From Catelliglobosispora koreensis DSM 44566 (lineage in GTDB: Bacteria; Actinomycetota; Actinomycetes; Mycobacteriales; Micromonosporaceae), in NCBI RefSeq assembly GCF_000379685.1, contig NZ_KB903251.1:186001-250000 (forward strand): DNA of 64,000 nucleotides, given 5' to 3'. Position 1 is the first letter of the stretch. Each line of letters opens with the position of its first letter. Position numbers and translations under genes: made by a program. This document shows, piece by piece, positions 3,202 through 60,465 of the stretch. The notes beneath the pieces are model-generated. The model was not told the origin of the DNA. It did not search any database and worked only from the letters and a program-made list of their open reading frames with translations.

Positions 3202-3331
3202 CATTCTCACGCCGAAGATTTAGTGATCTCCAAAGTAGACAGGCTATCTTCGGCGGCAGCTAAAGCCGTGCAAAGGCACTAAAAGGGAGCACGCGAGAGT
3301 GCCATCGCTTCCGGAAGTTTCCCGGAAGTTA

Positions 3332-3361
3332 TTGACAGTCCAAATTGGGCCGGCTGATGAT
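3332..3361 (+). promoter_or_regulatory. Candidate promoter for the GH11 xylanase
   Basis: A perfect -35 hexamer ttgaca (3332-3337) is followed 18 bases later by gatgat (3356-3361), matching four of six -10 positions. It would leave a leader of about 140 bases before the ATG at 3509. Predicted by pattern only. Confidence 0.4.
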
Positions 3362-5571: not shown

Positions 5572-5645
5572 TGCGCCCGGCAGGATTCGAACCTGCGACC
5601 GGCGGATTAGAAGTCCGCTGCTCTATCCAGCTGAGCTACGAGCGC
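5572..5645 (-). tRNA. tRNA-Arg (anticodon UCU)
   Basis: The minus strand gives a canonical cloverleaf of 74 bases. The acceptor arms GCGCTCG and CGGGCGC pair with one G-T wobble. The anticodon arm has loop CTTCTAA and so anticodon TCT, reading AGA. The T loop is TTCGAAT with a 5-bp GCAGG/CCTGC stem. The discriminator base is A. CCA is not encoded. Confidence 0.97.
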
Positions 5646-9340: not shown

Positions 9341-10873
9341 ATGATGGGCGGGATCTTGATCGCGGGCACGACCTCGGATGCAGGCAAGAGCGTTGTCGCC
9401 GCTGGCGTTTGCCGGTGGCTGTGGCGGCGCGGGGTCAAGGTCGCGCCCTTCAAGGCGCAGAACATGTCGAACAACTCCGCTGTGGTGGTCGACCGGCACG
9501 GGCGGGGCGGCGAAATCGGGCGGGCACAAGCGTTGCAGGCTGTCGCCTGTGGACTCGAGCCCGAGGTCCGCTTCAACCCGGTGCTCCTCAAGCCGGGCAG
9601 CGACCGGTCGAGTCAGGTCGTGCTGCTCGGCGAGGCCATCGGCAACGTGGACGCGGATAACTTCCGCAGCCTGAAGGAAACCATGTCCACCACCGCCTTC
9701 GCGACCTATGACGAACTAGCGCGCGAGTTCGATGTCGTGGTGTGTGAAGGGGCGGGCAGCCCAGCGGAGATCAACCTGCGTGCACATGACTACGTGAATA
9801 TGGGACTGGCGAGGCACGGAAAGCTCCCCACCGTCATCGTGGGCGACATCGATCGCGGGGGAGTCTTCGCCGCGTTCTACGGCACGGTCGCCTTGCTGGA
9901 CAAGGCGGATCAGGATCTCGTGGCCGGGTTCCTCGTCAACAAGTTCCGCGGTAGCCGCTCGTTGCTGCAACCGGGAATCGACATGCTGACGCGACTGACC
10001 GGCCGGCAGACCTTTGGCGTGCTTCCGTTTGACGTCGACCTGTGGCTCGACGCGGAAGATTCGCTCGCCTACGGCAAAGTGCTCGGGCGTCCCGCCGCAC
10101 CGGTGGGCACGCAATGGCTTCGGGTCGCGGTCATCCGGCTGCCGCACATCTCGAACGCGACTGACGCCGAAGCACTCGCGACCGAGCCGGGAGTGGCCGT
10201 CCGCTTAACGGTAGAGCCCGCTGAACTCGCCGACGCCGATCTCATCGTGATCCCAGGGACAAAGTCCACAGTGGAGGATCTGGAGTGGTTGCGCCGCACC
10301 GGTTTAGCCGACGCCATCGTTGCCCACGCGAACAGTGGCCGTCCGCTGCTCGGGATCTGCGGCGGGTTCCAGATGCTGTCACGGCGCATCCACGACGAGG
10401 TGGAGAGCAAGCGCGGCGAGGTCGAAGGGCTCGGTTTGCTGCCCGTCGAAATCGGGTTCCAGAAGACGAAAACCCTTGCCCGGCCAACAGGTGAAGGGCT
10501 CGGCGCTGACGTGAGCGGATACGAGATCCATCACGGCCAGGTCGTGTGGCGCGAAGACCATTTGCCACCCCTGCTCACGCTGCCCTCCGGTGCCGGCGAG
10601 GGGGCAGCTTCAGGATCCATATGGGGTACTCATTGGCACGGCGCGTTTGAATCAGACGAATTCCGGCGACGGTTCCTGACCCTCGTCGCCGGGCTAGCCG
10701 GGCGCCGTGGATTCACCGTCGCGCCGGGCACCTCGTTCGCCTCACTGCGCACGGCGACCGTGGACCGCCTCGCCGACCTGATCGAGGAGCACTGCGACAC
10801 GGAGGCGCTCTGGCGTGTCGTGGAAAGCGGTGCGCCACAAGGACTTCCGTTCCTGGCTCCCGGTGCGCCGTGA
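9341..10873 (+). CDS. cobQ: Cobyric acid synthase CobQ
   Basis: The 510-residue enzyme carries the two expected parts. The first is an ATP-binding domain starting [15 protein letters not shown] and containing [14 protein letters not shown] and [12 protein letters not shown]. The second is a class I glutamine amidotransferase domain with the nucleophile cysteine in [11 protein letters not shown] and the histidine in GTHWHGAFE. It amidates the corrin side chains at b, d, e and g in cobalamin synthesis. The next gene starts inside its stop codon. Either of the first two methionines may be the start. Confidence 0.95.
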
Positions 10874-58716: not shown

Positions 58717-58749
58717 GAAGCCCAGGGCTGTAGCCTAGCCCTGGGCTTC
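58717..58749 (-). terminator. Hairpin terminator downstream of the tRNA-like RNAs
   Basis: Arms gaagcccagggct (58717-58729) and agccctgggcttc (58737-58749) pair over 13 bp. It lies downstream, on the minus strand, of the two permuted tRNA-like elements and upstream of the anti-sigma gene. Confidence 0.7.
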
Positions 58750-58784
58750 GGGATGCCACCCATTTGCGCACGTCAGCGACATTT

Positions 58785-58892
58785 AAGCATGTGGATTAAT
58801 TTGTAACCTAGTGCTCTGCCATTAAGCCACAGCCCCATGAGCGGGGCTGACGGGAGTCGAACCCGCAATCCCAAGGCTGCCGCACATGCGGT
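58785..58892 (-). ncRNA. Permuted tRNA-like element B (YrlA-type Y RNA or permuted tRNA)
   Basis: On the minus strand the order is: anticodon-stem-like ccttg and ggatt (58867-58876), T arm GCGGG-TTCGACT-CCCGT, acceptor strand CAGCCCC and G, a 5-base loop CTCAT (58837-58841), acceptor strand GGGGCTG (58830-58836), then TG, D arm GCTT-AATGGCAG with AGC, and ctagg (58807-58811). The acceptor strands pair 7 of 7, the T loop and D-loop GG are canonical, and ctagg pairs with ccttg in 4 of 5. The flanks gcatgtg and cacatgc (58883-58889 and 58787-58793) form a further 7-bp helix. The order is a circular permutation of a tRNA. Confidence 0.75.
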
Positions 58893-58915
58893 TGATCTGA
58901 CGATCGGTGGCGAAT

Positions 58916-59050
58916 GCTGAGTCTGGAGCAAGAGTCTGAGTTTCATCGTGGTTGCCTCTGCCAGTTGGGCTACCTCCGCATGAGGTGCGGAGGGCGGGAC
59001 TCGAACCCGCACTTGTCGCCACGTTGGTCAGCTTGAGCTTCAGCTTCAGC
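58916..59050 (-). ncRNA. Permuted tRNA-like element A (YrlA-type Y RNA or permuted tRNA)
   Basis: On the minus strand the order is: flank with repeated GCTGA, cgtgg (59019-59023), T arm GCGGG-TTCGAGT-CCCGC, acceptor strand CCTCCGC and A, a 6-base loop CCTCAT (58980-58985), acceptor strand GCGGAGG (58973-58979), TA, D arm GCCC-AACTGGCAG with GGC, and ccacg (58947-58951). Acceptor strands pair 7 of 7; cgtgg/ccacg pair 5 of 5. Flanking segments continue the stem with bulges: CTGA/TCAG, CAAG/CTTG and GCTGA/TCAGC. A closed acceptor hairpin and paired ends are the architecture of bacterial Y RNA tRNA mimics. Confidence 0.75.
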
Positions 59051-59065
59051 TTGCGCTCATGCGCA

Positions 59066-59087
59066 CCCCCGCGCTCTCGCGCGGGGG
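59066..59087 (-). terminator. Hairpin between the DUF7873-like gene and the tRNA-like RNAs
   Basis: Arms cccccgcgc (59066-59074) and gcgcggggg (59079-59087) with loop tctc pair over 9 bp, 12 bases after the stop of the upstream minus-strand gene. It may end that transcript or separate it from the small RNAs. Confidence 0.6.
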
Positions 59088-59934: not shown

Positions 59935-60465
59935 ATGGGGGAATTCCGGATAGTGCCCACAGACCGGCTGGACCAGATTGAGCTGGACGACATTCGCGCC
60001 CTGATGGACGACGCCTTCCAAGGCAGGTTCGACGACAACGACTTCGAGCATGGTCTGGGCGGTTACCACGTGATGTCCTATGTGGACGCACAAGTGATCG
60101 TTCACGCTGCTGTTGTCGCCCGGACACTTCACATCGGCTCACGGCAGGTGAAGGCCGGTTACGTGGAAAACGTTATGGTGCAGCCACAATTCCAGGGACG
60201 CGGCCTCGGCCACGCGGCCATGGTCCTGATCGGCGACCTTATCGCGAAGCATTTCGAGCTAGGTGCACTGAGCGCAGGCGAACGCGCACAGCGCGTTTAC
60301 CGAAAGCTTGGCTGGCGCGTCTGGCTGGGGCCCACTTTCGTGGACGCGCCAGGTGGCCGCGAGCGCACCGCAGACGAAGACGGTGGTGTCATGGTGCTTG
60401 GCCCGCCAGACCTAGACCTGACCGAGCCGATCACGTGCGACTGGCGCAGGGGGGACGTCTGGTAG
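59935..60465 (+). CDS. AAC(2')-I family aminoglycoside 2'-N-acetyltransferase-like protein
   Basis: The 176-residue GNAT protein has the chief motifs of mycobacterial AAC(2')-I: FEHGLGGYHVMSYVDAQVIVHAAVV, GYVENVMVQPQFQGRGLG, LGALSAGERAQRVYRKLGW, GPTFVDAP, RTADEDGG and the ending CDWRRGDVW. In mycobacteria these intrinsic enzymes can acetylate aminoglycosides; the natural substrate is debated. The gene stands alone on the plus strand, between the minus-strand DUF7873-like gene and the minus-strand oxidoreductase. Confidence 0.88.
   Translation: MGEFRIVPTDRLDQIELDDIRALMDDAFQGRFDDNDFEHGLGGYHVMSYVDAQVIVHAAVVARTLHIGSRQVKAGYVENVMVQPQFQGRGLGHAAMVLIGDLIAKHFELGALSAGERAQRVYRKLGWRVWLGPTFVDAPGGRERTADEDGGVMVLGPPDLDLTEPITCDWRRGDVW

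Follow-up and report, generated by a model that had tools for sequence, protein, structure and literature searches.

Tandem circularly permuted tRNA-like modules linked to DUF7873 in bacteria and phages

It is their partner Ro60 that defines bacterial Y RNAs. Circularly permuted tRNA genes occur in algae and archaea, and a G3-U70 pair is a mark of tmRNA. In the published model of Y RNA function, a ring protein occupies the base stem and PNPase the tRNA-like domain (PMC8394870, PMC4726728); in the former report, the base stem holds Rsr and the tRNA-like domain binds PNPase. A survey of jumbo phages recorded that a small share of phages encode TROVE proteins, which in cells work with a tRNA-like partner (PMC7824862), and Y RNAs have been suggested near an Rsr-like gene of a Listeria phage (PMC12282133). 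The passages concerned make no mention of the protein family DUF7873. A search of open-licence PubMed Central papers for its name found none that contains it, and no description of a DUF7873-linked double module was found in the titles and abstract starts of that literature.

The window analyzed here is a stretch of 64,000 nucleotides from Catelliglobosispora koreensis DSM 44566. A previous sequence-only reading had proposed that its minus strand carries two tandem permuted tRNA-like modules, and inspection of the sequence, a module scan and covariation all bear this out. Along that strand, the DUF7873 gene is followed by hairpin 1, hairpin 2 and module A; a short spacer, also conserved, separates A from module B, after which come the tail TTAAATG and a hairpin of 13 bp (Table 1). 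In module A, the T arm (59010-58994) is followed by CCTCCGC as acceptor 3′ strand, the linker ACCTCAT, GCGGAGG as acceptor 5′ strand and the D arm; in module B, the T arm (58866-58850) is followed by CAGCCCC, the linker GCTCAT, GGGGCTG and the D arm. Both acceptor stems pair at 7 of 7 positions and the T loops read TTCGAGT and TTCGACT, as had been stated. The outer pairings are likewise present, namely CGTGG/CCACG and GCTGA/TCAGC in A, and CCTTG/CTAGG (4 of 5 pairs) and GCATGTG/CACATGC in B. What that reading overlooked is the linked DUF7873 gene, the distribution in phages and the fact that A and B together form one conserved tandem cassette.

Table 1. Positions of the cassette elements in the window, and of the elements of one phage locus in that locus.
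Feature	Position	Strand	Basis and remarks
DUF7873 gene, 243 aa	59100..59831	-	Pfam PF25283; directly upstream of the RNA; proposed protein partner
Hairpin 1, 9 bp, loop GAGA	59066..59087	-	Sequence; between DUF7873 and module A
Hairpin 2, TGCGC-ATGA-GCGCA	59052..59065	-	Sequence; similar hairpins in rows of the cassette alignment (by eye)
Module A with outer stem GCTGA...TCAGC and conserved 3′ strand CTCAGACTCTTGCTCCAGACTCAGC	58916..59050	-	Fold, covariation, model R1
tRNA-like core of A: T arm, acceptor 3′ strand, linker ACCTCAT, acceptor 5′ strand, D arm	58954..59010	-	Sequence, YrlA 25.6 bits, covariation
Conserved A-B spacer with ATCAA (motif ATCRA)	58889..58915	-	Cassette alignment
Module B with outer stem GCATGTG...CACATGC	58787..58888	-	Covariation, model R2
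tRNA-like core of B: T arm, acceptor 3′ strand, linker GCTCAT, acceptor 5′ strand, D arm	58813..58866	-	Sequence, YrlA 28.9 bits, covariation
TTAAATG, counterpart of the TTAAACG tail motif after B	58780..58786	-	Cassette alignment
13-bp hairpin, possible transcript 3′ end	58717..58749	-	Sequence, fold
HEARO RNA and two modules of Microcoleus phage locus L074	4950-5159, 6559-6702, 6804-6932

Several elements flanking the two heads recur elsewhere. The ATCRA motif between A and B is found in 79 of 88 loci, and the pattern T[TC]AA[AG], which is short, follows B in 79/88. Judged by eye, a GC-rich hairpin is visible at the place of hairpin 1 in rows of a 51-sequence cassette alignment. According to a terminator scan, hairpin 1 is terminator-like only if read on the plus strand; the same scan did not call the 13-bp hairpin, which is not followed by a T run. 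On the plus strand, the window also encodes (59935-60465) a GNAT protein distantly resembling AAC(2′) aminoglycoside acetyltransferases (141.7 bits to AAC(2′)-Ie, cut-off 400).

The product of the gene upstream of the RNA matches DUF7873 above the gathering score (384.5 bits, cut-off 27). All 22 members of a protein alignment (A1) match this family at E ≤ 0.01, even where identity to the window protein is as low as 29%, and N88, W137, K158, T169, H172, Q175, S194 and N224 are among the invariant residues. In the predicted structure (pLDDT 94.0, pTM 0.69), long helices are joined to two long strands. A Foldseek search with this model returned no match at E ≤ 0.001, and the best VIA-align match was 3kdq, itself a protein of unknown function (Z 9.4, rmsd 7.8). 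The DUF7873 search was without match in PADLOC, gave a single match in PHROGs (E 0.48) and a single one among PDB sequences (E 1.1). Judged by the model and these library matches, DUF7873 has no recognisable fold or function.

Both heads have a permuted tRNA-like fold with compensatory changes, and their tandem order is conserved. A strict scan for permuted modules, reaching 800 nt downstream of DUF7873, found at least one module in 147 of 168 regions downstream of DUF7873 homologues (73/80 in genomes, 65/78 in viral contigs and 9/10 in phage and plasmid records), against 0/3200 base-shuffled regions and 1/170 upstream control regions. Two strict modules are present in 51 genome loci, 30 viral contigs and seven phage or plasmid records. 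Covariation was assessed in alignments A3 and A4 (43 rows each), built from the 50 of 88 two-module loci with short linkers, which were made non-redundant to 43, with L073 subsequently left out and the window row added. A further alignment (A2) holds 90 rows, L202 having been dropped for a stop codon and some other loci not being used. Covariation in relatives, which had been suggested as a check, is evident: changes on both sides occur in 23 of 35 pairs in A and in 25 of 27 in B. In A, 92.9% of cells pair, compared with 82.5% after column shuffling and 35-43% when partners are slid, a control that favours the counted outer stem of A as this was taken from the window's own fold; RNAalifold on A3 did not recover that stem. 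In B, 88.5% of cells pair, compared with 66.3% in shuffles and 35-47% with slid partners. In the outer helix of B, 90.2% of cells are paired and each of the seven pairs shows changes on both sides; the outer stems played no part in choosing the loci. The T, acceptor and D helices pair in 95-100% of cells, in part because the loci were selected for this, and the same applies to U8, to the letters of the T loop and to GG in the D loop. In the anticodon-like stem proposed for B, only 49.7% of cells are paired in the alignment. Free-energy z-scores are −2.68 for A and −1.56 for B, which taken alone is weaker evidence.

Position 15-48 is A-T or G-C in 86/88 A and 88/88 B modules, so that the heads retain the tRNA elbow, and A14 is kept in 88/88 A and 82/88 B modules. 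Linkers measure 4-39 nt, 39 nt being the limit of the scan; some hold a hairpin, and their ends are conserved, with C at −3 in 83/88 A and 75/88 B modules. In the window, the sole Rfam match at gathering level is an ordinary tRNA (5572-5645), and ARAGORN called no tRNA at the site of A and B.

The RNA is linked to DUF7873 in bacteria as well as in phages. Searching the own genome and 60 relatives at the DNA level revealed loci with one or two modules, of which 16, including the window, encode DUF7873 alongside. DUF7873 is present in 17 of these 61 genomes, and a covariance model of B (R2) matches beside it, on the same strand, in all 17, at 52.8-137.4 bits and full-length in 16. The best R2 match away from DUF7873 is a partial one of 53.1 bits near a TROVE gene (G020); as it overlaps that range, the R2 score alone is not fully separating. 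Weak R2 matches with no DUF7873 nearby, many of them full-length (31-43 bits), were also seen in G010, G019, G028, G032 and G050; those of G010, G028 and G050, genomes without DUF7873 and without TROVE, include full-length matches of 36-43 bits. Possibly these represent further permuted RNA families.

Profile-based scans extended the survey to 80 bacterial loci, retained from at least 491 relatives, and 80 viral loci, retained from 250. R2 matches 75/80 bacterial DUF7873 loci at E ≤ 1e-9 (45/50 outside the training set), and the model of A (R1) matches 66/80 at the same threshold. The window itself scores 156.9 bits with R1 and 103 bits with R2, its row being part of both training sets. The bacterial hosts are Actinomycetota together with one Ktedonobacterales and one Deinococcales MAG. 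In L090 and L102 the B matches are weak (37.2 and 36.7 bits), and DUF7873 lacks an R1 or R2 match in three of the 80 genome loci (L086, L091 and L106), which we take to be Chloroflexi. In six Streptomyces loci (L098, L105, L118, L119, L121 and L128; near positions 3259-3358), ARAGORN placed a Leu or Phe tRNA over the start of module A. These calls look like artefacts, and genome annotations may carry such false tRNAs at the start of module A.

Among the viral loci, R2 matches 77/80 at E ≤ 1e-6 (66/69 outside the training set), counting a partial match (L211) and one cut by the contig end (L192). R1 matches 60/80 at E ≤ 1e-6, the match in L173 being its B module. Three of the 80 (L198, L200 and L206) have DUF7873 without an R1 or R2 match. 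A DUF7873 relative is carried by 73 of 50,697 phage records, annotated, among the matches listed, as hypothetical protein or not at all. Phages with the gene-RNA pair infect Arthrobacter, Gordonia, Rhodococcus, cyanobacteria and Klebsiella. A single module was found in each of four further phages, two of Vibrio and two of Rhizobium (L255, L256, L257 and L075). Arrangements vary: in a Microcoleus phage (locus L074) a HEARO RNA lies between DUF7873 and both modules, which are about 2 kb away (Table 1), and in viral contig L227 both modules (2130-2419) are upstream rather than downstream of DUF7873.

The same pairing of gene and RNA is found in numerous bacteria and large phages, in many cases without Ro60, and so the RNA appears to be a relative of the bacterial Y RNAs that has gone undescribed. 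The reading that we favour, and regard as reasonably probable, is that of a double-headed, Y-RNA-like tRNA mimic working with DUF7873 rather than with Ro60. The locus would produce either a single structured non-coding RNA some 300-400 nt long or a transcript from which two RNAs are processed, presenting a pair of circularly permuted tRNA-like heads, with a separate stem closing the base of each. By analogy with Ro60 and Y RNAs, DUF7873 would bind the conserved stem strands (CTCAGAYTCTYGCTCCAG of A; TGATCC and TTAAA of B) and internal loops, and thereby stabilise the RNA. The two heads might dock, guard or decoy a tRNA-recognising enzyme, be it PNPase as in RYPER, a tRNA nuclease or a repair factor, and the RNA could have a use in RNA surveillance when cells are stressed, and also during infection by large phages. 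With DUF7873 as binder and heads that engage tRNA enzymes, we propose a Ro60-independent sibling of the Y RNPs. We infer both protein binding and function of the DUF7873-RNA pair.

New here are the linkage to DUF7873 and the double-headed cassette common to bacteria and phages. If the favoured reading is correct, tRNA mimicry as an RNP handle would be a more general strategy, in which the same heads go with another conserved gene; the spread across actinobacteria and phages of several bacterial phyla stands behind this generality. DUF7873, a family of unknown function, would gain a first testable role. Moreover, laboratory phages carrying the module would allow deletion to ask what a tRNA mimic does in infection.

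An ordinary pair of YrlA Y RNAs acting with Ro60 in trans, with DUF7873 as a mere neighbour or accessory, appears unlikely, though it has several results in its favour. The sequence-only reading had considered a Y RNA pair the best fit. This stands insofar as A and B are tRNA mimics of YrlA layout, with a permuted core of T arm, acceptor and D arm closed by a base stem; it is not supported for the Ro60 partnership, given the missing stem motif, a neighbour that is DUF7873 and not TROVE, and many genomes without detectable Ro60. The Y RNA label is partly supported, right for the shape of the heads but not supported as to the partner. The Rfam YrlA model (RF02553) matches both modules full-length at a relaxed threshold, below its gathering score of 69 (B 28.9 bits and A 25.6 bits, with E 2.9e-4 and 2.5e-3 for a 451-base stretch). 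This threshold does not discriminate, as Ro60-linked RNAs of relatives (25.9-49.7 bits) equally fail to reach it. It had also been noted that the window holds no Ro60/TROVE gene, which is correct: the only TROVE match of the genome lies on contig C1 and the window on C3, so that Ro60 is present in the genome, which speaks for its action in trans, without being adjacent.

On the other hand, the genome's own TROVE gene has a permuted module about 0.8 kb away (C1:572980-573075), and the linkage of the RNA studied here is to DUF7873. That module likewise has a tRNA-like core and is matched by R2 (positions 22-119, 50.6 bits), yet differs in its place beside TROVE and in its GTGCGTAG/CTCGG stem motif. 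At this locus (L031; C1:563000-582000, module near locus position 10000), as in L030, two ordinary tRNA genes lie close to TROVE and the module. A YrlA-like match is carried by 12 of 13 TROVE loci scanned in the own genome and relatives; these come from the 14 TROVE genomes, with L037 left out. In 12 of 14 Ro60-linked RNAs, the stem carries GTGCGNAG upstream and CTCGG downstream, a motif derived from these same RNAs of relatives in the bacterial family to which the window belongs. Both halves together occur in 0/88 A and 0/88 B modules beside DUF7873. The 5′ half taken by itself is found in 0/88 A and 0/88 B and the short 3′ half in 3/88 A and 7/88 B, and the window's A and B have neither. Unlike YrlA, then, the window RNA consists of two tandem modules behind DUF7873, with different stem strands and without the Ro60-linked motif; CCA is often encoded after acceptor A, and the RNA occurs in genomes without detectable Ro60.

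TROVE was detected in 8 of the 17 DUF7873 genomes of the 61-genome set and in 25 of 49 DUF7873 genomes overall (leaving aside L094, L108, L136, L140, L150 and L152), and was undetectable in the other nine, including the single-contig G031 and G033, and the other 24, respectively. Similarly, it is present in 7 of 32 viral records and undetectable in 25, some of which are fragments, these records covering 32 of the 88 viral and phage loci. Six phage records titled complete genome (W01-W05 and W08) are without TROVE. DUF7873 genomes and complete phage records lacking TROVE indicate that TROVE is not required. It is nevertheless enriched with DUF7873 (8/17 against 6/44 genomes without DUF7873; Fisher p = 0.014), also in a second set that is confounded by genus (5/7 against 6/389; p = 1e-7). 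Being enriched and not depleted, Ro60 may take part where it is present, and the Ro60 and DUF7873 systems may serve related processes. In two viral contigs (G469 and G476; loci L220 and L238), TROVE lies within about 3 kb of DUF7873.

Equally doubtful is a reading in which DUF7873, without detected relation to Ro60, and the RNA form a new RNP common to bacteria and large phages, which would be matured by tRNA enzymes through cutting of the linker and formation of CCA on A, and would act in phage-host conflicts over tRNA cleavage and repair. Improbable to a somewhat greater degree is a two-piece molecule resembling tmRNA or a split tRNA, from which tRNA-processing enzymes would excise the linker, leaving a CCA end on A that is perhaps aminoacylated, and in which the acceptor and outer stems would hold the pieces together. 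In favour of such a molecule, the base after the acceptor is followed by CCA in 44/88 A modules, more often than in B (16/88) and in ordinary tRNA genes of the bacterial (23/130) and viral (51/293) loci, although this count is crude and CCA is missing in half of the A modules. CCA after acceptor A may be a relic, or the linker may be cut and a CCA end formed. Linkers vary widely in length, some of them containing a hairpin, although conservation is seen at their ends; those of the window, however, at 6-7 nt, could be plain hairpin loops. Gene order is that of permuted tmRNA, with the acceptor 3′ strand before the 5′ strand, and the permuted tmRNA model (RF04321) weakly matches the shared core at 17.8 and 16.0 bits. 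These scores do not reach its gathering score of 47, and G3-U70 is found in only 2 of 43 A modules.

Genuine permuted tRNA genes that are spliced into decoding tRNAs, judged less likely from the start, are disfavoured to the point of being very improbable. The modules share the order of the halves with the permuted tRNA genes of algae and archaea, as well as the tRNA elbow. In contrast to those genes, joining the halves rarely gives an anticodon-loop signature, and the outer base stems are conserved instead: with any one cut, U33 and purine 37 together with a stem of at least four pairs were obtained in at most 1/88 A and at most 10/88 B modules of the 88-locus set, which does not include the window's own pair. 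ARAGORN called all 688 constructs of joined halves, which is uninformative because all had been pre-filtered for the stem, so that the U33/purine-37 count alone was used.

Decayed remnants of tRNA arrays, or chance, to which the frequent position of phage homologues among tRNA genes might be taken to point, are already contradicted by covariation and by a tandem order conserved across phyla and phages, and can practically be dismissed. Within about 2.5 kb, tRNA genes were called in 22 of 40 viral loci scanned (out of 80), which points to tRNA biology; in bacterial loci, a tRNA call not overlying module A was obtained in 3 of 40 (out of 80). In nine of the 40 viral loci (L165, L171, L179, L184, L185, L194, L197, L203 and L209), a tRNA gene in ordinary order begins no more than about 30 nt after the B match, with varied anticodons. 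The window has no tRNA gene just after module B. Rfam confirms all nine genes as tRNA (48-64 bits), and this post-B tRNA gene could be a third element of the cassette.
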